Origin: Candidatus Woesearchaeota archaeon
GTDB taxonomy: Archaea > Nanobdellota > Nanobdellia > Woesearchaeales > GW2011-AR4
NCBI GenBank assembly: GCA_016180235.1
Contig: JACPBQ010000002.1
Location: 128,206-192,205 of the forward strand
Length of the DNA: 64,000 bases
Reading direction: 5' to 3'
Positions within the stretch are counted from its first letter, which is position 1. Each line of letters begins with the position of its first letter. The notes beneath the pieces are model-generated. The model was not told where the DNA came from and did no database searches. It saw only the letters and a list, made by a program, of their open reading frames with translations. Shown in pieces: positions 10,768 to 61,501 of this stretch. The position numbers were made by a program, and so were the translations under genes.

Positions 10768-11040
10768 TAAAAAAATGCCAATACGGTTAAGAAACAAGTT
10801 AACAATAATTTGATTATGTTTAAGATGATATAAAATTAATAATTAAACGCAAATAAAAATAATTCATATCCGGCGTTTTTGCAAAAACAATGCGGGAGGG
10901 CAAAAAACGCAGGTTATTATTTTGATTTTCATGAAAATCAGAGATTTTCAGGACACGGAAAATTTTAAATTTTCTCGTGTTTCATTGTCATAATGAAATA
11001 ATGTTTGCATTAAAATATGACAAAACAAATAGTTGGTAAC
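10768..11040 (+). repeat. Dispersed spacer element, copy 1
   Basis: One of three related elements in this window. Block order: 'atgccaatacggtt', a 'tcacaa/taacaat' block, 'tttgattat', AT-rich linker, then a stem CCGGCGTTTTTGC (10870-10882) with GCAAAAAACGCAGG (10900-10913), 'ttattattttgatttt', 'taatgaaataa' and 'aacaaatagttgg'. Copy 1 has about 60 extra bases carrying two palindromes. It fills the whole spacer between the 9346 gene and the 11076 gene, both on this strand. Confidence 0.75.
10924..10980. repeat. Two palindromes inserted in spacer element copy 1
   Basis: GATTTTCATGAAAATC (10924-10939) is a perfect 16-bp palindrome, and ACACG-GAAAATTT / AAATTTTC-CGTGT (10953-10980) is a near-perfect stem-loop. 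Neither is in copies 2 and 3, so they look like a secondary insertion or expansion. Confidence 0.55.
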
Positions 11041-11075
11041 TGATTGATTAAATGCTAATAATGAGTGACTAAAAA

Positions 11076-15246: not shown

Positions 15247-15397
15247 TGTCAAAAACCACAATTCATATAATGGTGGCATGTTTCTTAGCGAAAAGCTAAG
15301 AAGTGGTTTTTGAGCATGCTCGGAAATATACCATAATTATTTATATTATAGTATTACTTCCATCAGTTATAAACTAAGGGTATATTTCCGACATATA
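15247..15397 (-). repeat. Cruciform-forming repeat, copy L (inverted relative to copy R)
   Basis: On the minus strand: GTCGGAAATATACC, about 41 bp, GGTATATTTCCGA, the palindrome GAGCATGCTC, then AAAAACCAC with an inner hairpin CTTAGC/GCTAAG and closing GTGGTTTTTGACA. It matches copy R (16928-17034) almost base for base over about 100 bp, in the opposite orientation. The 41-bp spacer is the main difference. It lies between the divergent DUF4443-like and methyltransferase genes. Confidence 0.85.
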
Positions 15398-15425: not shown

Positions 15426-15959
15426 ATGAAGCCGTTAGCATTCCAGCAGATAAAAAAAGAGTATGATGCTTTCTATAATGAGCTGCTAAGCCAGGGACAG
15501 CTCCCTCTGAGGTCCACAGGCAAAGGCTTTTGGGGTCATGTTCCAGCTGAAGATATTTATGAGGCATTTAAGCAGCTGAATTTGCAGGATCATAAAACAT
15601 TCATTGACATAGGGAGCGGTGATGGAAAAGTAGTTTTGATAGCTTCCTTGTTCTGCAAAAGAGCAGTTGGCATTGAGATAGATGACGAGCTGTTCAGGAA
15701 ATCCCTGGATATGCAAAAAAGCCTCGGCATAGGCAATGCGGCATTTTTTAATGATGATTTCTACAGCCATAGCGTCTCAGGATTTGATGCTGTATTCGTA
15801 TATCCTGACGAGCCTATGCACCGGAATTTGGAAAAAAAGCTTCTTAACGAGCTTACTGGGAAGCTGATACATTGCGGGCATCATTTTCATCCTGAAAACC
15901 TTAGGAAGCACAAGGACGTAATAGTGAATGGCACCCTGATGACAGTCTATACTAAGTAA
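15426..15959 (+). CDS. Class I SAM-dependent methyltransferase
   Basis: 177 residues. Motif I is 'FIDIGSGDGKVVLIASLF' (about 59-76) and the acidic end of strand 2 is 'VGIEIDDELF'. The usual catalytic signature after strand 4 is replaced by 'VFVYPDEP', so the substrate cannot be read off; it is not NPPF/DPPY. The N-terminal helix 'FWGHVPAEDIYEAFKQL' resembles small archaeal methyltransferases related to the lysine/Dot1-like group. It converges with the DUF483-like gene (8-bp overlap), and the pair is bracketed by repeat copies L and R. Confidence 0.7.
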   Translation: MKPLAFQQIKKEYDAFYNELLSQGQLPLRSTGKGFWGHVPAEDIYEAFKQLNLQDHKTFIDIGSGDGKVVLIASLFCKRAVGIEIDDELFRKSLDMQKSLGIGNAAFFNDDFYSHSVSGFDAVFVYPDEPMHRNLEKKLLNELTGKLIHCGHHFHPENLRKHKDVIVNGTLMTVYTK

Positions 15960-16794
15960 ATATCATAAATCCGGAATCATCTAAAATCTTATTTCCGATT
16001 TTCACTTTGTTTTTGCTTATTATTTCAATTTTTTTATTTTGGCTTAATTGGTTAAATAATTCATTTTTTATTGTTGGCATTATTTCATCGTATTCTAAAA
16101 TATTGTCCTTTAATTTATAATCCTTAAAAGCAAAAATCCCGTCATTCTCGGTGTAAAGGACAGCGCTTTTAAGCATATTCTCAAATTTGCCCGCTAATTC
16201 CGGGGAATATTTTTTTATTGTTCTCAGGTTCTCTTTGGCTATATTTACCGATTCTTTGCAGTTGAAATCATGCGGAAAATGGCTCAATAAAGTTATGTCA
16301 AAATACCTCATTGCATGGTTCGTATAGAATGGGAATTCAAAGCCATTAGAATTATTCAGGGTAGGGAGCATGTAATCATTTTGAATTTTTTCCTGTTTTT
16401 TCCTGTTTTTTGTAAAAAAATCAATGCAGCATTCCGGGTAGCCAAGTATTTCTCCAACAGCCCGGTCATCATTTTTGCTCTCTAGTATTTTGAGAAAGTT
16501 TGCTTTGTTTTTATCCCTGGATATATATAAATGATATAGCCCGGGATTTGCATTATTAATTGAAACTCTCTTGACTATATTGGCATAATTTCCTTTCCCC
16601 CGGTCAGCAGTTTTTACGACTTTAAAATCCGATATTTCCAAAAAAAGGTTATTTTTGCTGCAAAAATCTTTGATTTTGGCTAATTCATCTTGATTGGCAT
16701 CCAGCCTTACTGCCATCTTTAAATTATTAAGAAGATAAAAAATCTCCAATGATCGTGTATAATTAGCGAATATTTTCAATAATTCTTTCACCAT
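15952..16794 (-). CDS. DUF483-like protein
   Basis: 280 residues, soluble. The key motif is 'GEILGYPECCIDFFTKN' (about 117-133), the conserved 'GYPxCC..F' of archaeal DUF483 proteins, whose function is unknown; the two adjacent Cys may bind metal. The N-terminal 'ANYTRSLEIFYLLNNLK' and the mid-protein 'YHLYISRDKNKAN' also fit. It overlaps the methyltransferase tail-to-tail by 8 bp, and its promoter region holds a perfect hairpin and repeat copy R. Confidence 0.6.
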   Translation of the reverse strand: MVKELLKIFANYTRSLEIFYLLNNLKMAVRLDANQDELAKIKDFCSKNNLFLEISDFKVVKTADRGKGNYANIVKRVSINNANPGLYHLYISRDKNKANFLKILESKNDDRAVGEILGYPECCIDFFTKNRKKQEKIQNDYMLPTLNNSNGFEFPFYTNHAMRYFDITLLSHFPHDFNCKESVNIAKENLRTIKKYSPELAGKFENMLKSAVLYTENDGIFAFKDYKLKDNILEYDEIMPTIKNELFNQLSQNKKIEIISKNKVKIGNKILDDSGFMIFT

Positions 16795-16927: not shown

Positions 16928-17034
16928 TATATGTCGGAAATATACCATAGTATATTTCCGAGCATGCTCAAAAACCACTTCTTAGCGTTTAGCTAAGAAA
17001 TATGTCACCATTCTATGAATGGTGGTTTTTGACA
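16928..17034 (+). repeat. Cruciform-forming repeat, copy R
   Basis: Compact form of the element: stem 1 TCGGAAATATAC/GTATATTTCCGA with a 5-nt loop, the palindrome GAGCATGCTC, then an AAAAACCA/TGGTTTTT outer stem that encloses two hairpins, TTCTTAGC/GCTAAGAA and CCATTC/GAATGG. The whole would fold as a three-way junction in single-stranded DNA or RNA. Copy L is the inverted counterpart 1.5 kb away. Confidence 0.85.
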
Positions 17035-30999: not shown

Positions 31000-31275
31000 A
31001 TGCAAAAAGAGGACCTTAACCATTGCATGCTTATTTTCTATACTTTAAAGTATATCCCGCAGAAAGAAAAAGTAAAGGTCCTGAGAGATCTCAATGGATA
31101 TAAGGAAAAAAAGCAGGGCAAAGAATACCATCATAGCGGCTTGGTGCAGAAAGCCAATGCGGAAAAGCTCGGCTCTAACGTCATTCTGGTCCCAATAGGC
31201 AGTTTCGCTGATTTTCAGAATTTTTTCAGCAAAAGCAATATAAGCATCAGGCTGAAAGAGGTCTTGGTAAAGTGA
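31000..31275 (+). CDS. Small protein of unknown function leading locus A
   Basis: 91 residues, no signal peptide. The sequence 'VKVLRDLNGYKEKKQGKEYHHSGLV' followed by 'NVILVPIGSFADFQNFFSKSN' suggests a small alpha/beta fold with a basic face; no family recognised. Its stop overlaps the GTG start of the pilin-like gene (GTGA), so the two are translationally coupled. By position it corresponds to the small regulators that precede loci B and C and may be their functional counterpart. Confidence 0.55.
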   Translation: MQKEDLNHCMLIFYTLKYIPQKEKVKVLRDLNGYKEKKQGKEYHHSGLVQKANAEKLGSNVILVPIGSFADFQNFFSKSNISIRLKEVLVK

Positions 31276-33362
31276 ATATTAAAAACAAAAGAGGCCAGGC
31301 AGCAGTTTTCATAATTATAGGGCTCATTATCCTGATTACTGCAGGAGTCATATTTTTCATCCAGAGAGAAGAAATAAAGCCTATTGAAAAAGAATCAGGG
31401 GAGCAGCCCCAGTTTGCAGGCCAGGCAGAACTGAAGAATTTTGTTGATAGCTGCCTGCAAAGCTCTGTTTTGCAGGGTTTGCAGATAATGAGCCTGCAAG
31501 GCGGCTATATAGATATTCCTGCTGATTCGAATATCTTGACAGCAGACGGAAATGATATCCCTTACTGGCTCACTGCTGACAGCGTAGCAATACCATCGCT
31601 TGATTTCATGCAAACAGAGCTGGAAAATTATGTTGTGAAAGAGCTTGAATCATGCGTCAGCGGTTTCAAGGATTTTAAAGATCAGGGCTTTGAAGTTAAT
31701 TACAGCAGCATAAAAGCAGATGCAGCCATGGGAAAAGCTGTTGTTGTGAATGTTGATTTCCCGATTATGCTGAAAAAAGAAGGAATAAGCTTTGAAGAAA
31801 AGGATTTTGTGTATACAGTTCCGATAGACATGGAGCTCATACAGAAAACCGCTTCTGGCCTTGCTGCTCTGGAAGACTTCCACACTTACCTTGAGGACCA
31901 TACAAAAAATCTGATTTCATTGTACTCTGGAGTTGACCAGAACAGGCTGCCTCCTTTTTCCCAGTCTACCACAAACCTTAATTGCAATTTTGTCAGCTGG
32001 AGCAAGGAGGAGGTAAAAAACAGATTAAAGAATATCCTTAATTTTAATGTTCCAAACTTAAAAATAGAGGGAACGAACTATAATTTAGCAGGTTCTGATG
32101 CTGTTTATGAAAGCTTCGTTTATGACTTGTTTAATGAAAATTTTCCAAACTTGAAGATTGATTTTATTTATGAAAACAGCTGGGAATTCCTGGCTTTTGA
32201 CATTGTCCCCAGCAGCGGAAATTCATTGATTCCGGAAAAAGTCGTTGGGACAAATATACCCATGCTGCCGCAGATTTGCGTTTTTAAGTATCCTTTCAAG
32301 TATACAATGCAGTATCCAGTTTTAATTAAAATTACTGATTTAAATTCGGCAAAAATAGACCCTGCGGCTGATGTTTATTATGAAAAACAGGGCTTTGCTT
32401 TCCAGTTCCCAATGGTTTCTTACTTATGCGGAAATCAGAACAGGAAATGCGTTGCTGGAAATTTTCCTCAAATTGATGTAACTTCTTTTGCCGTTGGAAA
32501 TACGACTTTACTGCCTCAAACTTTGTTCTGCAAACCAGAGCAGATGATAAGCAATGAAATAACAGTAAAGACTTTTGATTCTTTAACTGCAAATAGTTTA
32601 TCGAATGTTGATGTAAATTATTACTGCGGCAGCTACCAGAATGACTGCTTTATCGGAAGGACCGATGGGAATGGTGTTTTAAAGGCAAAATTCCCGCTAT
32701 GCATTAACGGGCAGATATACTTTGCAAAAGAGGGCTATTCAATTTTAGGCCAGGGCTTGACAACCCATGAAATTCCAAAGTCTGAGCTTGCATATTTCCT
32801 GAATCCGAAGAACAGCCTTAAAGTGGAAATGAAGAAAGTAAGTATTCTTTCATTAGTTCAGGATTATTTTGAAAATAATAAGTTAAATATTGAAAACAGT
32901 TTGCAGGATGTTATTGCTGGAGAGAAAGTTACAATAGTTTCTGATACAGGCTTATTTTACATTTATCCTGATCCTGCAGACAGGACTCTGCAGATTGGCA
33001 CCGGAAACCATAAGTTTGGGCTGCAGTTGACAGCGGAAAATGCAAGTTCGCTTGGATTTCTGAACGCTGATGCTTCGGTATCAAAAGAAGATTTGAGAAA
33101 AAGCAAGGTTGTATTTTATGTCTTTGAGGACAGCAGCACTGACTCTATTTTGAGGGCAGACGGGAATCTGGAAGCCGAGCTGTTGTATTCATGCGGGAAA
33201 AATGCAGACGATAGCTGTAATTTTGATTCATGCAGTTTTGCCGGCATAGACGGCTTAAATATACGGGACTTTAATGATAATTTGGAAACATGCGAAAAAG
33301 CATTTAATATTACGATAGCAAAAGAGCAGTACCGGGATTTAATAAAGCCCGTATTCAGCTGA
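31272..33362 (+). CDS. GQ-anchored (class III signal-like) surface protein, locus A
   Basis: 696 residues. The N-terminus 'KNKRGQAAVFIIIGLIILIT' is a short basic segment, G-Q junction and hydrophobic helix, like archaeal class III (pilin-type) signal peptides cleaved before the helix. The following region 'ELKNFVDSCLQSSVLQGLQI', 'GGYIDIP', 'IPYWL', 'LENYVVKELESCVSGF' and 'NRLPPF' aligns with the proteins at 38489 and 47939. The C-terminal third is predicted extracellular, with paired Cys and a carboxypeptidase-regulatory-like fold ('NSLSNVDVNYYCGSYQND..GRTDGNG'). The GTG start overlaps the previous gene. Likely a pilin-like or membrane-anchored external protein. Confidence 0.75.
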   Translation: MNIKNKRGQAAVFIIIGLIILITAGVIFFIQREEIKPIEKESGEQPQFAGQAELKNFVDSCLQSSVLQGLQIMSLQGGYIDIPADSNILTADGNDIPYWLTADSVAIPSLDFMQTELENYVVKELESCVSGFKDFKDQGFEVNYSSIKADAAMGKAVVVNVDFPIMLKKEGISFEEKDFVYTVPIDMELIQKTASGLAALEDFHTYLEDHTKNLISLYSGVDQNRLPPFSQSTTNLNCNFVSWSKEEVKNRLKNILNFNVPNLKIEGTNYNLAGSDAVYESFVYDLFNENFPNLKIDFIYENSWEFLAFDIVPSSGNSLIPEKVVGTNIPMLPQICVFKYPFKYTMQYPVLIKITDLNSAKIDPAADVYYEKQGFAFQFPMVSYLCGNQNRKCVAGNFPQIDVTSFAVGNTTLLPQTLFCKPEQMISNEITVKTFDSLTANSLSNVDVNYYCGSYQNDCFIGRTDGNGVLKAKFPLCINGQIYFAKEGYSILGQGLTTHEIPKSELAYFLNPKNSLKVEMKKVSILSLVQDYFENNKLNIENSLQDVIAGEKVTIVSDTGLFYIYPDPADRTLQIGTGNHKFGLQLTAENASSLGFLNADASVSKEDLRKSKVVFYVFEDSSTDSILRADGNLEAELLYSCGKNADDSCNFDSCSFAGIDGLNIRDFNDNLETCEKAFNITIAKEQYRDLIKPVFS

Positions 33363-37845: not shown

Positions 37846-38322
37846 TTAATTTTGCTAAAACTCAATACTATTTTAATATACCTTATTTATACTTTAGTTA
37901 TACTTAATTTTGTATAAATAATACTCTATAAATACTTAAAATATACTTTAATTATACTATTTTTTGTATAAATTATTAAAATAAAGCTGATTTATAATAA
38001 AAATATTTATATACTAGTATACAAATTATATCCTAATTATGACAAAATATAGGATAAAATCAGCATAGATAAAGGCTTTAATGACTAAAATAAATTAAAA
38101 TTTCCAATTTCATCAAAAAAGCCAAAAACAAAGAAAAACTGATTTCCATTATAATAGGCGAGGTCGAGCGTGTGCGTGAGATGCGAGTGAGCAAGTAGTA
38201 AAGCTATAAGTGATATACTCAATTATTCACTCGCTCACAATTCACTGACAGCGAGACCGAGCACTATATTTTGTGAGCGAAGCGAACAGGCTAAAAATTT
38301 TAAAAAATTAATTTAATCAAAA
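37846..38322. other. Intergenic region upstream of locus B
   Basis: About 480 bp without a gene. The first 200 bp are AT-rich with repeated ttatact and taaata words and a strong TATA candidate (aatatttatatactagtatac, about 38003-38025). The second part holds the CGAG-rich repeat described separately. Confidence 0.5.
38157..38295. repeat. CGAG-rich repeat, long copy
   Basis: Begins gcgaggtcgagcgtgtg and ends gacagcgagaccgagcacta followed by gtgagcgaagcgaac. An inner inverted repeat gcgagtg / cactcgc spans about 44 bp. The two ends match the short copy at 40659-40700. GC-rich words stand out against the AT-rich surroundings. Confidence 0.6.
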
Positions 38323-38488: not shown

Positions 38489-40609
38489 ATGGGAACAAAG
38501 GCGCAGGTTTCAATATTCATCATTTTTGGGATCGTAATTTTAGCGGCAGCTGCAGTTGTGTTTTACATAAATACATCCGGGCAGAAAGAGGAGATTGCTC
38601 CCGGAGTTTTTATTTCAACTCAGGAAATACCAACTCAGCTTGACCCTGTAAGCAGTTTTGTCACGCAATGCCTTGATGATGTGGCTGTCAGCGGCCTGAA
38701 GCTGATAGGCGAGCATGGAGGCTATATAGACACCAACAGCCCTGAACTCACAAAGCAGAATTTCAAAATAAGCGATGACCCGACTGAAAGCGATGCTGTT
38801 GCTTTTGCACCAGGAAGCGAATTTAAAATCCCGTACTGGTGGTATCTGGAAAGCAATAATAATTGCGAGGGGACATGCAGGTTTTCAAGCAAAAGACCGG
38901 AATTAAGGGATGATGATGGCTCAATAGAAAAGCAACTCAACAGGTATATAGAAAAAAATATGCCGGAGTGCATAAATAATTTTGAAAGCTTAACCGGGCA
39001 GGGATTTGAAATCAGCGGATTAAGCGCAATAAAAGCCAATGCAAAAGTTGCGGAAAGCGATGTTGTCGTAGTCATGGACTATAGATTAAGCGCAAAAAAG
39101 GAAGGCATTACATCCACTTTGGACCAGTTCTTTGTGAGGGTTCCGGTTGACCTGGAAAAAATCTACAATCTTGCCACAGAAATAACAAACTTGCAGCAGA
39201 AATACCGCTTCCTCGAAAGGCAGACTATGAACCTTGTGTCTTCTTTCTCGTCAGTCGATAGCAATAAGCTGCCTCCGGTTACAGACATGAGGTTTGAGTT
39301 CGGAAGCACTACAAGCTGGAGGAAATCGGATGTAAAAAACAGTATCATGCAGGTACTGGCAAGCTACATCCCCATGTTCCAGGTAGATGGCACAAGGAAC
39401 TTCAATCGCGACTTTTACTCTTCGGAATTAAAGCAGAGGCTTTATGACAGCATGATTGTTCCCGTTGCAAATCAGGAATACAACAATTTGGATGTGACAT
39501 TCAATTATCTTGACTTCTGGCCGATATATTTCAGCATTAATTGCAACGGGGAAATTTGCCAGCCAGAATCAGCTTCCTCGAACCTGCTGGCCCTTATAGG
39601 GCTGCAAAGGTATGATTTTGCATACGATGTTTCATTTCCGGCATTAGTCGGGGTTTTTGACCAGGACGCATTGAACGGACAGGGCTATAATTTCAATTTT
39701 TTCCTGGAAGCCAATGTAAGGAACAACCGCGAGCTGGAGTCAGAGTTTGTGCCTTTGCAGACAGCCGATATTCCTGCCGCATCTTTCCTCTGCGATTTAA
39801 GCAACAGGAACAGCGCTGAAGTGACAATCAAGGTGATTGATGCAGTTGAAGCAAAGCCGCTGGATGGTGTAAGCGTTACTTTAGGAGTTGCAGGAGAAAA
39901 CTGCTACATCGGAAGCACAAACGAGAATGGCACTTTGGTTGCAAAATTTCCAGCCGGGACAGCAGGCGCACTCATTAGCTTATTGAAGCCTGACTATATC
40001 TCAAAATCGCAGTTGTTTGACGCGAGCCCTGACAGGAAACTTTCTCTGGAAGCGAAGCTTGACCCTGTCAAAGAAAAGAAGATAACAATAAAGAAAAAGC
40101 TGCTCGAAAAAACAAGCAGAGGCTGGGAGTTTACAAACAAAATTTCTGACTTAAAGCCGGATGAGGAGGCATTTGTGACGCTGACAAGATTAAGCCCGCT
40201 TACAGAGGAGGATTTTGATGCTGTTGCAAGCATAAAGGGGCCCAACGAGGAGCAGATCAGGCTGGCTCCGGGAAAATATGAGGTTAATATAAACACTTTC
40301 CTGAGGGAAAACATAAGGATACCTGAAAAGAAAGTGAGGAAAAAAACCGGTTTGTTCTCGGAAGAGGAATTTACCATCCCCGGATTTGAGTTTAATGCAA
40401 ACAATCCTTATCCTTCCGGAGGCTTAAGGATGAATGTTACGATAACAGAAGAGGACCTAAAGAAAGACACCATCACATTTTTTGCGGTAAGCCCGGCTTT
40501 GGAGAATGTTCCTGAGCAGCAAAGGTCAATTGATGATTTGAATCAGGCGGCAAATATTGACGAGTATTCAAGAGTTTTTGCAGCATTGTTGGCTCCAGTA
40601 TTCCAATAA
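38489..40609 (+). CDS. GQ/AQ-anchored (class III signal-like) surface protein, locus B
   Basis: 706 residues. The N-terminus 'GTKAQVSIFIIFGIVILAAA' is a variant of the pilin-type anchor, with A-Q instead of G-Q. Shared motifs with loci A and C: 'VSSFVTQCLDDVAVSGLKLI', 'GGYIDTN', 'IPYWWYLES', 'LNRYIEKNMPECINNFES', 'SNKLPPVTDM'. The C-terminal ~250 residues are predicted beta-rich and include a carboxypeptidase-regulatory-like segment ('VEAKPLDGVSVTLG', 'ENCYIGSTNENGTLVAKF'). It is one base downstream of the RHH gene. Confidence 0.76.
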   Translation: MGTKAQVSIFIIFGIVILAAAAVVFYINTSGQKEEIAPGVFISTQEIPTQLDPVSSFVTQCLDDVAVSGLKLIGEHGGYIDTNSPELTKQNFKISDDPTESDAVAFAPGSEFKIPYWWYLESNNNCEGTCRFSSKRPELRDDDGSIEKQLNRYIEKNMPECINNFESLTGQGFEISGLSAIKANAKVAESDVVVVMDYRLSAKKEGITSTLDQFFVRVPVDLEKIYNLATEITNLQQKYRFLERQTMNLVSSFSSVDSNKLPPVTDMRFEFGSTTSWRKSDVKNSIMQVLASYIPMFQVDGTRNFNRDFYSSELKQRLYDSMIVPVANQEYNNLDVTFNYLDFWPIYFSINCNGEICQPESASSNLLALIGLQRYDFAYDVSFPALVGVFDQDALNGQGYNFNFFLEANVRNNRELESEFVPLQTADIPAASFLCDLSNRNSAEVTIKVIDAVEAKPLDGVSVTLGVAGENCYIGSTNENGTLVAKFPAGTAGALISLLKPDYISKSQLFDASPDRKLSLEAKLDPVKEKKITIKKKLLEKTSRGWEFTNKISDLKPDEEAFVTLTRLSPLTEEDFDAVASIKGPNEEQIRLAPGKYEVNINTFLRENIRIPEKKVRKKTGLFSEEEFTIPGFEFNANNPYPSGGLRMNVTITEEDLKKDTITFFAVSPALENVPEQQRSIDDLNQAANIDEYSRVFAALLAPVFQ

Positions 40610-47538: not shown

Positions 47539-47694
47539 ATGAGATATACAAAAAAGGTAATCAAAACCTCTGGAGGCCTGGTAGTAAGGGTTCCAGCAGA
47601 TATTGTAAAGCTCCTTAATTTGACAGATAAAGACTATGTTGAGATTGATTTGACAAAAATAGACCTCAAAGAATTAAACAAAAAATCAAAATAA
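47539..47694 (+). CDS. AbrB-like small regulator leading locus C
   Basis: 51 residues, too short for the ORF track. 'YTKKVIKTSGGLVVRVPADI' and 'LNLTDKDYVEIDL' give the AbrB hairpin pattern, close in length and layout to the 7192 protein. It is followed by spacer element copy 2 and then the locus C pilin-like gene, so locus C, like locus B, is preceded by a small DNA-binding-type protein. Confidence 0.68.
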   Translation: MRYTKKVIKTSGGLVVRVPADIVKLLNLTDKDYVEIDLTKIDLKELNKKSK

Positions 47695-47915
47695 AAAAAT
47701 GCCAGTACGGTTCACAAACAGCTCACAATTATTGGGTTATGATAAAAGGTGATTCAAAATTAAAAATACAAAATAAAAAAAATCATTCCCGGCGTTTTTG
47801 CCTTAAATTAGCCATAATAGCAAAAACGCAGGCTATGAATTATTGTTTTCAATGCCCTAATGAAATAAAGCATGCATGTAGAAATGAGCTAGCAAATAAT
47901 TGTGAAAATTACCTA
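47695..47915 (+). repeat. Dispersed spacer element, copy 2
   Basis: Starts with 'atgccagtacggttcacaaa', almost identical to copy 1 ('atgccaatacggttaagaaa'). The core stem is CCGGCGTTTTTGC (47789-47801) with GCAAAAACGCAGG (47820-47832), then 'taatgaaataaag' and 'caaataattgtg'. It fills the spacer between the AbrB-like gene stop and the start of the locus C pilin-like gene, same strand as both. Confidence 0.78.
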
Positions 47916-47938
47916 AGATAAATTAATTGAAAAATAAA

Positions 47939-49816
47939 ATGTCCAAAAAAAGAGGTCAGGCAACTATTTTTATGGTAATGGCGATAATCATATTGCTTCT
48001 TGGATCTTTTTTCTTCTTTGCCCAAAGGGCTTCTCTGGAAAAAACCGAATTGATAAGCCCTGAAACAGCGCCTGTAAAAAGCTTCATAGACACGTGCATA
48101 ACAGATGTTGCGAGGCAGGGAATAACAATTTTAGGATTGAATGGGGGATATATAAATTTCCCGGATGAGATAGAAAGAAGCCCAAGGAGCTACCTGCAGC
48201 TTGGCCCCGTAAGCAGCATAAAAAACCCATACTGGTGGTATGACGGCATTGAAAGCGTCCCGTCAGAAAGCTTTATTGCAGGCCAGATAGAGGGCTATAT
48301 TGCCTCAAACCTTGACAGCTGCATAAGCGGCTTTACAGCCTTTAACCAGCTTGATTTAAAGCAAAAAGGAAAGCTTGAGGTAAAGGTAACGCTTAACGAG
48401 AATGATGTGACTGTAGATGTGAATTATCCCCTGGAGCTTGCAAACAAGCTTAACAGCACCACAATAATGCTGGAAAATTTTAAGGAAACCCTGCCAATCA
48501 GGCTGAAGAAGGCCTATGAGACGGCAAAAGACATCTATGAGTCTGAAAAAAGGAGTTTTTTCCTGGAGTTCAAGACAACAGACCTTATATCCATGGATGA
48601 GAGCATACCCACAACTGGCATAGAAACATCCTGCAGGGAGAAAACATGGCGCGTTGACCGGGTGCAGGAAAAGCTGAAGAGGCTCCTCAATGTAAACCTG
48701 CCTTATATCAACATAGTTAATTCTGACTTTAATGAAAATGCCTATGTGCCAAACCCATTCGGGGAAGACACCTATAAGGACTCTTACTATGAGAAGCACT
48801 ATAAGTGGCAGGTATCGGATAAGGATTATGCTGGTTTGAAGGTTTCATTCGCCTACGAGGAAAGCTGGCCAATGCAGTTTAACGCAAGGCCGAGCAGCAA
48901 TGGCATAATGAAATCAAATGCCCAGAAAAGCCAGGGCTTCCTCGATTTCTTCTGCCTGCATATATGGCACTTTACCTATGATGCGGTATATCCTGTAAGG
49001 ATTACCATAACAGACATTGCTCCTGAATCCGAGCCCTACCAGTTTAACTTTGCATTCAAGGTAAGCGTTGACCACAATCAGCCAAGGAGGGAAAATTTTG
49101 CATCGACATTATTCGAGCAGCCGGATTTAGGCAATCAGGAAGAATACTGCAACGATGTTGTAAATGACATTACAGTATACACCGTGGAAAACACAACAGT
49201 ACAGAAGGATGTGGCGCATGTCAACCTCACATTCGTCTGCGGGGTATTTAGCTGCAATATGGGGGAAACAGACTGGCTCAGCTTTGGCGCTGCAGCAGGC
49301 CTTACCAAAGCATTCCCTTACTGTGTAAACGGGATCCTTAGAGGCAGCAGGGAGGGGTTTGAGGATGGCCAGATGTTCATGCGCACAGAAACTCCGGGTA
49401 CATACATCCTTCACCTTAAGCCCGTAAAGGAATTCCAGTATTATGATATCGTTAAGCATGACTTTGACAATCCCATTGCAGAAAGCGGATTGAGGGAAAA
49501 TGAGAGAATATCAATAACAATAAAATCCCTGCAGGATAATTTTGAATCTTTTGGGGTTTATCCCATTGAAAGGGATTTCCCGATAAGGCTGCTCAATGAT
49601 AACCAGGAATATGAAGTGACGATCTACCTGTCAGACGAAGACAGCATCATTGGCGGCTACAAGGGAATATGGAAAGTTTCCCCTGAGCAGGTGGCAAGCG
49701 CAAAAAAAATAAGATTCCACGTCCTGGAAAAGCAAGGAAGCGAAGATGAAGCAGCGTTATTTGTTGCAGGGCTTGATTCATACTCCAAAAAAGTTCCGCA
49801 GCCGGAGCTGGTATAG
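47939..49816 (+). CDS. GQ-anchored (class III signal-like) surface protein, locus C
   Basis: 625 residues from ATG 47939; the TTG four codons upstream in the ORF track is less likely. The anchor is 'MSKKRGQATIFMVMAIIILL'. Shared motifs: 'VKSFIDTCITDVARQGITIL', 'GGYINFP', 'KNPYWWYDG', 'IEGYIASNLDSCISGFTAF'. Unlike A and B it lacks a clear 'LPP' segment. The middle contains Trp/Tyr-rich stretches and the C-terminal ~200 residues a beta-domain with Cys ('FVCGVFSCNMGETDW', 'KAFPYCVNGILRG'). The ATG lies about 24 nt downstream of spacer element copy 2. Confidence 0.75.
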   Translation: MSKKRGQATIFMVMAIIILLLGSFFFFAQRASLEKTELISPETAPVKSFIDTCITDVARQGITILGLNGGYINFPDEIERSPRSYLQLGPVSSIKNPYWWYDGIESVPSESFIAGQIEGYIASNLDSCISGFTAFNQLDLKQKGKLEVKVTLNENDVTVDVNYPLELANKLNSTTIMLENFKETLPIRLKKAYETAKDIYESEKRSFFLEFKTTDLISMDESIPTTGIETSCREKTWRVDRVQEKLKRLLNVNLPYINIVNSDFNENAYVPNPFGEDTYKDSYYEKHYKWQVSDKDYAGLKVSFAYEESWPMQFNARPSSNGIMKSNAQKSQGFLDFFCLHIWHFTYDAVYPVRITITDIAPESEPYQFNFAFKVSVDHNQPRRENFASTLFEQPDLGNQEEYCNDVVNDITVYTVENTTVQKDVAHVNLTFVCGVFSCNMGETDWLSFGAAAGLTKAFPYCVNGILRGSREGFEDGQMFMRTETPGTYILHLKPVKEFQYYDIVKHDFDNPIAESGLRENERISITIKSLQDNFESFGVYPIERDFPIRLLNDNQEYEVTIYLSDEDSIIGGYKGIWKVSPEQVASAKKIRFHVLEKQGSEDEAALFVAGLDSYSKKVPQPELV

Positions 49817-59899: not shown

Positions 59900-60532
59900 T
59901 TAAGATTGTCTAACAGAACCAAACTCCTCAAAGCTCCCGCACCTCAAAAAAGGATTGTTCTCTTTCTCATGCTTTATTGTAGAATGCTGAATAGAGCCAT
60001 AATCATGCCCCGGATAGACTTTAATGTTTTCATCCATGTCCTTAAGCCTCTGCAGACTTTCCCACTGCTTTTTTATATCTCCCCCGCGCATATCCACTCT
60101 TCCGCAGCCCTCCACAAACAAAGTATCACCAGTAATAAGCTTATCAGTGCCTATTAAAAAACAAACACAGCTGGGCTTATGCCCGGGAGTATGCAAAACG
60201 CTTATTTTTATTTTGCCTACATCTATTTCGTCCCCTTCGTCTATGGTTTTTATCTTTTTAATGCCTAAATTCCTGATGTCTTTTTCCCCGTTTTTATGGA
60301 CATAAACAGCTGCATTGGTAATATCAAATATTTCCTTTACGCCTTCTATATGGTCAAAATCAGCGTGGGTTATGAGGATTTTATTCATTTTCAGGCTGTG
60401 TTTTTTGGCTATATTAAGGATTTTGCTGAGTTCCCATGCCGGATCAACCACAGCAGCCTCTTTTGTCTTTTCATCTCCGATAACATAGGCAAAATTCTGC
60501 ATCTGCCCGACAGGAATCTGCTCGAAAATCAT
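59900..60532 (-). CDS. Glyoxalase II-like MBL-fold hydrolase
   Basis: 210 residues, the compact form of the hydroxyacylglutathione hydrolase/persulfide dioxygenase branch of the MBL fold. Metal ligands: 'ILITHADFDHIEG' (HxxxDH), 'HTPGHKPSCVCFL', 'LITGDTLFVEGCGRVDM', and the C-terminal 'KVYPGHDYG'. The conserved 'ENNPFLR' near the end is typical of the family. It would hydrolyse a thioester or related sulphur compound; the substrate is not decidable here. It follows spacer element copy 3 on the same strand. Confidence 0.82.
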   Translation of the reverse strand: MIFEQIPVGQMQNFAYVIGDEKTKEAAVVDPAWELSKILNIAKKHSLKMNKILITHADFDHIEGVKEIFDITNAAVYVHKNGEKDIRNLGIKKIKTIDEGDEIDVGKIKISVLHTPGHKPSCVCFLIGTDKLITGDTLFVEGCGRVDMRGGDIKKQWESLQRLKDMDENIKVYPGHDYGSIQHSTIKHEKENNPFLRCGSFEEFGSVRQS

Positions 60533-60551
60533 TTTCAGTAAATTTTGGTTT

Positions 60552-60769
60552 TATCCAATGCCAACAATTATTTGTTAATTCGTTTTTTGATTTCACTCTT
60601 TATCTCATTGTGCACTAAAATCAAAATAATAATTACCTGCGTTTTTGTTTTCAGTAGTTGTATAGCAAAAACGCCGGCTAAGATTTTTTGAATTTTTATT
60701 GCCTTTTTTTATAATTTGCAATTAATATTTATCTTAATCAAATAGTTGTGAATTCAGTTGTGAGTTTTA
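60552..60769 (-). repeat. Dispersed spacer element, copy 3
   Basis: On the minus strand: 'actcacaactgaattcacaac', 'tatttgattaagat', the core stem CCGGCGTTTTTGC (60665-60677) with ACAAAAACGCAGG (60636-60648), 'taattattattttgatttta', 'caatgagataaag' and 'acaaataattgttgg'. It fills the spacer between the end of trmI and the start of the glyoxalase-II-like gene, same strand as both. Confidence 0.75.
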
Positions 60770-60775
60770 TTGTTT

Positions 60776-61501
60776 TTAGATTTTCCTGACAAAGCTCAAA
60801 AACCCTGAATGCCCTATAGCCTGCGACCTTGGCCTGACTTTCCTCTCCTCAACTTCCCATTCCCTTTCAATGATTTCAGAAGTCTTGATGTATGCGAAAT
60901 TCTCATTCTTCCTGATTTCATTGACAAAATCCATAACCTGCGGGATTGTAGGGCTGTATGAAACCAAAAAGCCTCCGGCTTTGAGCGATTTTTCCGCGCT
61001 TTTCAGGGCTTTCCACGGCTCAGGCAAATCCAATGTTACCAAATCAACATTCTTCTCATCAATCCCGTTATAGATATCCTCGTTTTTTATTTTTATATTT
61101 TTAAGGCTTAGAAATTTGATATTGCCCTCGACTATTTTGATGAAGTCCTCTCTTAGCTCGTATGTAACCACTTCCTTTGCAATATTGGCCAAAAAGCAGG
61201 CCAAAGCTCCAGAGCCGGCACCGGCATCCACAACCTTGCTTTTATTGTTCACTCCGGTCTCGGAAACTATCAGGCCGATATCCTTCAGGGGGATAATCTG
61301 CGCGCCCCTCTTGATTTTCCTGTACAGATCAATGAAACTCGGCTCAAAAACAGAAAATTCCCTGCCTGTGTTTGTCTTGATTTTTCCTTTTTTTGCTTTC
61401 AGGCCTTCTTTTTTGAAGAAGCCGAATTTGGTATGAAAATCACTGCCGGGATCCCTGACTAAGAATTTGCTGCCCTGCCTGTCCATCAGAATTTTTGCCA
61501 T
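60776..61501 (-). CDS. trmI: tRNA (adenine-N1)-methyltransferase
   Basis: 241 residues from the ATG at 61501; the ORF track adds 35 unlikely residues. N-terminal beta region 'GSKFLVRDPGSDFHTKFGFF', then the Rossmann methyltransferase domain: 'KVVDAGAGSGALACFLAN' (motif I), 'TYELREDF', 'DLVTLDLPEPW' (the DxPxPW motif of the m1A58 enzymes), 'GGFLVSYSPTIPQV'. The archaeal enzyme methylates A57/A58 in the T-loop of tRNA as a tetramer. It lies about 2 kb from tRNA genes on the same strand whose T-loops are among its expected targets. Confidence 0.9.
   Translation of the reverse strand: MAKILMDRQGSKFLVRDPGSDFHTKFGFFKKEGLKAKKGKIKTNTGREFSVFEPSFIDLYRKIKRGAQIIPLKDIGLIVSETGVNNKSKVVDAGAGSGALACFLANIAKEVVTYELREDFIKIVEGNIKFLSLKNIKIKNEDIYNGIDEKNVDLVTLDLPEPWKALKSAEKSLKAGGFLVSYSPTIPQVMDFVNEIRKNENFAYIKTSEIIEREWEVEERKVRPRSQAIGHSGFLSFVRKI

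Follow-up and report, generated by a model that had tools for sequence, protein, structure and literature searches.

An Oriented, Imperfectly Palindromic Intergenic Repeat Family with a Preferentially Retained Gene-Proximal Half in a Woesearchaeal Genome

The gap between a small AbrB-like ORF and the anchor gene of locus C, in the 64,000-nucleotide stretch of a groundwater Candidatus Woesearchaeota archaeon genome analysed here (the window), holds one copy of a family of interspersed, imperfectly palindromic DNA repeats of the MITE/ERIC-like kind, which fill the spacers from one gene's stop codon to the start codon of the following gene. We tentatively read this family as an intergenic repeat whose retained gene-proximal half may act in cis as a transcribed partial terminator or processing site. 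Our literature search for such repeats in DPANN, to which this archaeon belongs, found nothing on point.

Results

Copies and Distribution of the Repeat

The covariance model located the element where the sequence-only reading had placed it, between the AbrB-like ORF and the locus C anchor gene (Table 1, copy 2). Copy 2 measures roughly 220 bases, and its 3' end lies almost at the ATG at 47939. Its similarity to other repeats is far above chance, since plain BLAST with copy 2 within its own genome returned further copies at E=3e-23, 6e-23 and 3e-19. Three copies had been counted at first; with the 3'-half model, the 1.04-Mb genome of the window (G000) holds 33, and the score gap after the 33rd is sharp (E=2e-6 to 0.015). 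Among the 36 genomes of the family searched with this model, 16 copies were found in G001, 15 in G017, 12 in G013, 11 in G020 and few elsewhere, with no match in most genomes of genus g10. An order-wide search of 353 genomes gave matches at E 1e-4 or better in nine, all within the one family. The repeat is thus short, non-coding and multicopy, as a MITE is, and all matches found were short copies.

Table 1. Coordinates of the repeat copies, their parts and the neighbouring genes in the window
Feature	Position	Strand	Basis and remarks
Copy 2, whole element	47699..47917	+	Covariance model R1, 180.5 bits (copy 2 in R1 training set)
Copy 2, 5' half (gene-distal; lost in many copies)	47699..47777	+	Model R3, 51.5 bits
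Copy 2, 5' arm CTCACAATTATTGGG	47722..47736	+	Read from sequence; imperfect inverted copy of 3' arm
Copy 2, tip hairpin GCGTTTTTGC-N18-GCAAAAACGC	47792..47829	+	Pattern match
Copy 2, 3' half (gene-proximal, most conserved)	47843..47915	+	Model R2, 51.5 bits, E=8e-15; alignment
Copy 2, TTTT tract in 3' half	47846-47849	+	
Copy 2, 3' arm CAAATAATTGTGAA in 3' half	47893-47906	+	
AbrB/MazE-like small ORF, 51 aa, upstream of copy 2	47539..47694	+	Pfam MazE E=7.8e-4, below curated cut-off
Locus C anchor gene, 625 aa, downstream of copy 2	47939..49816	+	ORF
Copy 1	10775..11051	+	Models R1, R2, R3; before gene with C-terminal xylose-isomerase-like TIM barrel (Pfam)
Copy 3	60550..60776	-	Models R1, R2, R3; before metallo-beta-lactamase-fold gene 59900-60532 (-)

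The locus C anchor protein had no family match in Pfam and no match in a search against viral contigs. Its gene has matches in 33 of the 36 family genomes, paralogs included, and its pairing with the AbrB-like ORF is conserved across the family, as judged by synteny in the upstream regions of relatives. Distant paralogs (28-30% identity) lie in the window at 31272-33362 and 38489-40609. The window also carries two 45-nt direct repeats of operator-like appearance at 37878-37976, within a 682-bp divergent intergenic region.

Architecture

Aligned copies share one architecture. A 5' block (ATGCCARTACGGTTCACAAACAAGTTCACAATAATTTGATT) is followed by a stretch rich in A/T and, optionally, by a tip hairpin (GCGTTTTTGC-N16-GCAAAAACGC) with CCGG on one side and AGG on the other; the 3' block (TTTTTTATTGCC..AATGA.ATAAA..AATGAC..AACAAATARTTGTGAACATARGATAAA) terminates near the downstream ATG. 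The repeats typically measure about 180-250 bp; most copies fall within 183-332 bp, and nested inserts bring the length to 430 bp. The tip-hairpin pattern, for which 0 matches are expected in shuffled sequence, forms perfect stems in other copies. The outer arms (TTCACAATTATTTG and CAAATAATTGTGAA) are imperfect inverted copies of each other, and the R1 model therefore also matches some copies on the reverse strand. With regard to terminal inverted repeats, imperfect arms were seen in copies that are decayed and asymmetric at their outer ends; no target-site duplication was definable in the flanks and empty sites viewed by eye.

The near-identity of the 5' starts of copies 1 and 2, noticed earlier, was borne out, as their first 14 bases differ at one base (ATGCCARTACGGTT). 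This start had also been taken for the most conserved part outside the stem, which it is not: the 3' block is more conserved, and ATGCCA is missing from copy 3 and from the repeats of other genera. The highest conservation in the alignment falls on CAAATRRTTG...GATAAA in the 3' block adjoining the gene, where CAAATRRTTG is near-palindromic. A leader peptide was considered and rejected, because the frame of 12-13 codons (MPIRFTNKFTII-like) that the ATGCCA start yields in many copies is interrupted or missing elsewhere, both in further copies (copy 3 has no such frame) and in other genera.

Copy 1 bears an additional nested palindrome. Nested short palindromic repeats occur inside element copies at about 10915-10977 of the window and at L059, L067, L029, L058 and L060, and the insert types are two-hairpin units and a GTGGGGTGCAAAGCACCCCAC unit. 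A ATGATTGGTGGTTTTTGACAAAT hairpin in L068 resembles an 88-nt inverted repeat of the window (15247-15334 / 16947-17034, 92% complementary), which flanks genes at 15426-16794.

Placement and Orientation

Nearly every copy occupies the gap from a stop codon to the next start codon, and the downstream ATG is most often 3-60 nt beyond the element. Each copy in G000 precedes a co-directional gene, and every downstream gene that could be assigned to a family shares the strand of its element (27/27). According to ORF calling, the upstream genes are mostly co-directional as well, with exceptions that include L066 and L068. Junctions holding the element include S12|S7, L1|L10|P1 and Nop5|fibrillarin, and also those of Spt5, RpoA' and aCPSF1. 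Among the downstream genes are those for S7, L10, P1, an L7Ae/L30e-type protein, S27ae, fibrillarin and Spt5, together with RNAP subunit A', aCPSF1, Hsp70, the lipoprotein transferase Lgt, OapC, Ogg and Sec61beta. In three genera (G000, G013 and G006; L129, L131 and L074), a copy also stands before the gene of the termination nuclease aCPSF1 itself.

The element had been suspected of being regulatory, tying locus C to the same signal as the TIM-barrel and glyoxalase-like (here metallo-beta-lactamase-fold) genes. Its position directly before a co-directional gene, the preferential retention of its gene-proximal half and the locus C position shared by G000, G001 and G002 speak for a regulatory part. 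A signal specific to these three genes is not supported, as about 33 genes of every kind are preceded by the element and the AbrB-locus C pairs of most relatives are without it; the three-gene idea is too narrow.

Asymmetric Decay and Homogenisation

A 5'-half model with information content equal to that of the 3'-half model found 19 copies, every one of them accompanied by a 3' half. Solo 3' halves numbered 14 and solo 5' halves 0, a comparison in which the training set of the 3'-half model contained solo halves recovered with the full-length model. This asymmetry is the best evidence for the importance of the gene-proximal half. Taken together with the position directly before a co-directional gene, it points to a cis-acting role, although part of it might arise without function, if sequence close to start codons is simply better tolerated.

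The tip hairpins are perfect stems and genome-specific (GCGTTTTTGC in genus g1, GTGTTTTGC in G013 and ATTTTTTGC in G017), although many of these copies sit at orthologous genes, which argues that copies have been homogenised within genomes. The identity of 3' halves was 0.637 for orthologous cross-genus pairs vs 0.636 for same-genome paralogs; within a genus it was 0.673 for orthologous and 0.624 for paralogous copies. Near-equal ortholog and paralog identity fits homogenisation but weakens the simple view that each site is under selection. The identity and hairpin patterns together suggest gene conversion, recurrent insertion at favoured sites or modular turnover of the tip.

Inheritance and Empty Sites

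In the sister species, 10 of 15 copies lie between the same gene pairs as in G000 (68-97% protein identity), copy 2 among them. In genus g11, 30 copies have a downstream gene that could be identified, and in 10 of them this gene is an ortholog of one that follows the element in g1, whereas about 1.2 would be expected at random (P about 2e-7), an expectation that assumes about 900 genes, a number that is itself an estimate. G002 and G006 add one shared-position copy each, bringing the total for other genera to 12. The position of copy 2 before the locus C gene is occupied in three species of two genera. The repeats are old enough for different species and genera to have copies in common.

Where the element is present, the S12-S7 gap spans 277 and 239 nt; in eight genomes without it there (G004-G008, G017, G018 and G034), the gap is -4 to 13 nt. 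In G004, only about 14 nt separate the AbrB-like and locus C genes, and most relatives with this pair have no element between its genes. These tight gaps identify the elements as insertions and not as ancestral spacers. Since most relatives do without the element, no gene strictly needs it.

The 6-kb contig L230 (JACOWB010000013.1) carries the gene pair too, separated by 77 nt that hold no element. It is labelled Aenigmatarchaeota and, unlike the rest of its genome, matches the window's genus at 82%; it is probably misbinned, because the core genes of that genome (G059, JACOWB01) are only 34-63% identical. The use of G059 as an element-free congener was accordingly withdrawn.

In genus g10 (L172-L221), the S12-S7 and AbrB-locus C junctions carry other, unrelated oriented repeats, which we term families B and C. 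Family B is 79-83% identical over about 120 nt between the S12-S7 and AbrB-C spacers. In 260 kb of G021 (L260-L272), family C occurs 22 times, in 18 cases with a co-directional downstream gene. As unrelated repeats occupy the same junctions in sister genera, operon junctions may commonly be opened by repeats in this archaeal family.

These observations bear on a plainer explanation, that the copies are selfish or relic MITE-like repeats which have no function and insert or persist only where they are harmless, in operon gaps, their shared positions being inherited or hot spots. The palindromic, multicopy nature and patchy distribution of the family, the empty sites in relatives, the genome-specific hairpins and the unrelated repeats at the same junctions are all as this would predict. 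Uniform orientation with the downstream gene, exclusive retention of the gene-proximal half and maintenance before the same genes across genera speak against it, and we consider it possible but less likely. Integron attC sites, an idea prompted by palindromes between co-directional genes, were set aside, as the copies are dispersed and sit at orthologous core operons.

Signals in the Gene-Proximal Half

A run of four or more T is present in 70/80 copies, and the alignment has two invariant T columns. The 3' half also contains A-runs of similar length, so the U-tract could be a matter of base composition. TATA boxes (TTTAWA) are not enriched in the element (9/45 vs 12.8 expected from shuffling), whereas 14/24 ordinary upstream regions have one. 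A Shine-Dalgarno effect was not clear either (11/74 vs 8/32).

The fixed spot 3-60 nt ahead of most start codons, the conserved near-palindromic CAAATRRTTG block and a neisserial precedent (reviewed in PMC10969869) would suit a promoter or operator module, in which the 3' half supplies the downstream gene with its own start site, like Correia elements in Neisseria. We regard this as unlikely given the TTTAWA counts; moreover, at the copy-2 locus a likely TATA-type promoter precedes the AbrB-like gene.

A structured regulatory RNA, acting as a riboswitch-like leader, might explain why tip hairpin stems are perfect and yet different between genomes. Searches of Rfam gave 0 matches at the gathering score and only chance-level matches at a relaxed threshold, no consensus fold of weight emerged and RNAalifold found no structure in the 3' half, folding gave equal z-scores for the two strands (-1.67 and -1.91), and solo halves have no hairpin, which makes such an RNA highly improbable. 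The equal z-scores and the missing 3'-half fold, with the absence of TATA enrichment, disfavour a structured RNA as well as a promoter of the canonical kind.

Discussion

In this study, we tentatively favour the reading that the gene-proximal half acts in cis as a partial terminator or processing site. The insertion of a repeat would open an operon junction, after which the 5' half and tip hairpin would decay while the gene-proximal ~80 nt would be retained, since they would act on the downstream gene. Action at the transcript level appears most likely, considering the U-tract in the mRNA sense, the lack of TATA or Shine-Dalgarno enrichment and the lack of a conserved fold. The retained part would then serve as a partial aCPSF1-type U-tract terminator or processing site together with a leader, and expression of the downstream gene would be lowered or uncoupled from that of the upstream gene. 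For copy 2, this would set the expression of locus C relative to the preceding AbrB-like regulator. Internal operon termination at U-tracts with aCPSF1 has been described for ribosomal-protein and RNAP operons of Methanococcus maripaludis (PMC10450193), and we infer the terminator step from this precedent, the kept T-tract and the evidence against an RNA or promoter. As even ribosomal-protein operons are split, in uniform orientation, the repeat probably tunes the output of the downstream gene.

A bolder extension is that dispersed repeats distribute operon-internal attenuators and set the gene ratios of core operons via aCPSF1; the element at aCPSF1's own gene in three genera would then create a genome-wide, self-limiting termination circuit from mobile DNA, with unrelated repeats in the same role in sister genera. 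We consider this quite unlikely.

Small DPANN genomes are regarded as streamlined. Despite this presumed streamlining, tight core operons (S12-S7, L10-P1 and Nop5-fibrillarin) have been opened by oriented repeats in a lineage-specific manner. If expression is tuned by them, the repeats would supply operon regulation in mobile form to archaea that are not yet culturable or genetically manipulable, and because sister genera offer sites with and without the element, environmental transcriptomes could be used to test this.

Several known systems resemble this family. ERIC / RU-1 elements of Enterobacteria are likewise imperfect palindromes of about 100-200 bp, intergenic and dispersed in tens of copies, and they can affect mRNA processing; the repeats described here differ in their uniform orientation with the downstream gene and in their retained solo gene-proximal halves, and no sequence relation is expected. 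Correia elements of Neisseria are also small inverted-repeat elements directly upstream of genes and affect expression, but they carry promoters, whereas the present element has no TATA enrichment. Archaeal MITEs (Sulfolobus SM1-SM4 and others) are similarly short, palindromic, non-coding and multicopy, while element positions here are shared across genera. The ioTTS of M. maripaludis share a U-tract inside ribosomal protein and RNAP operons; those sites are single, whereas the putative sites described here are copies of a dispersed repeat.
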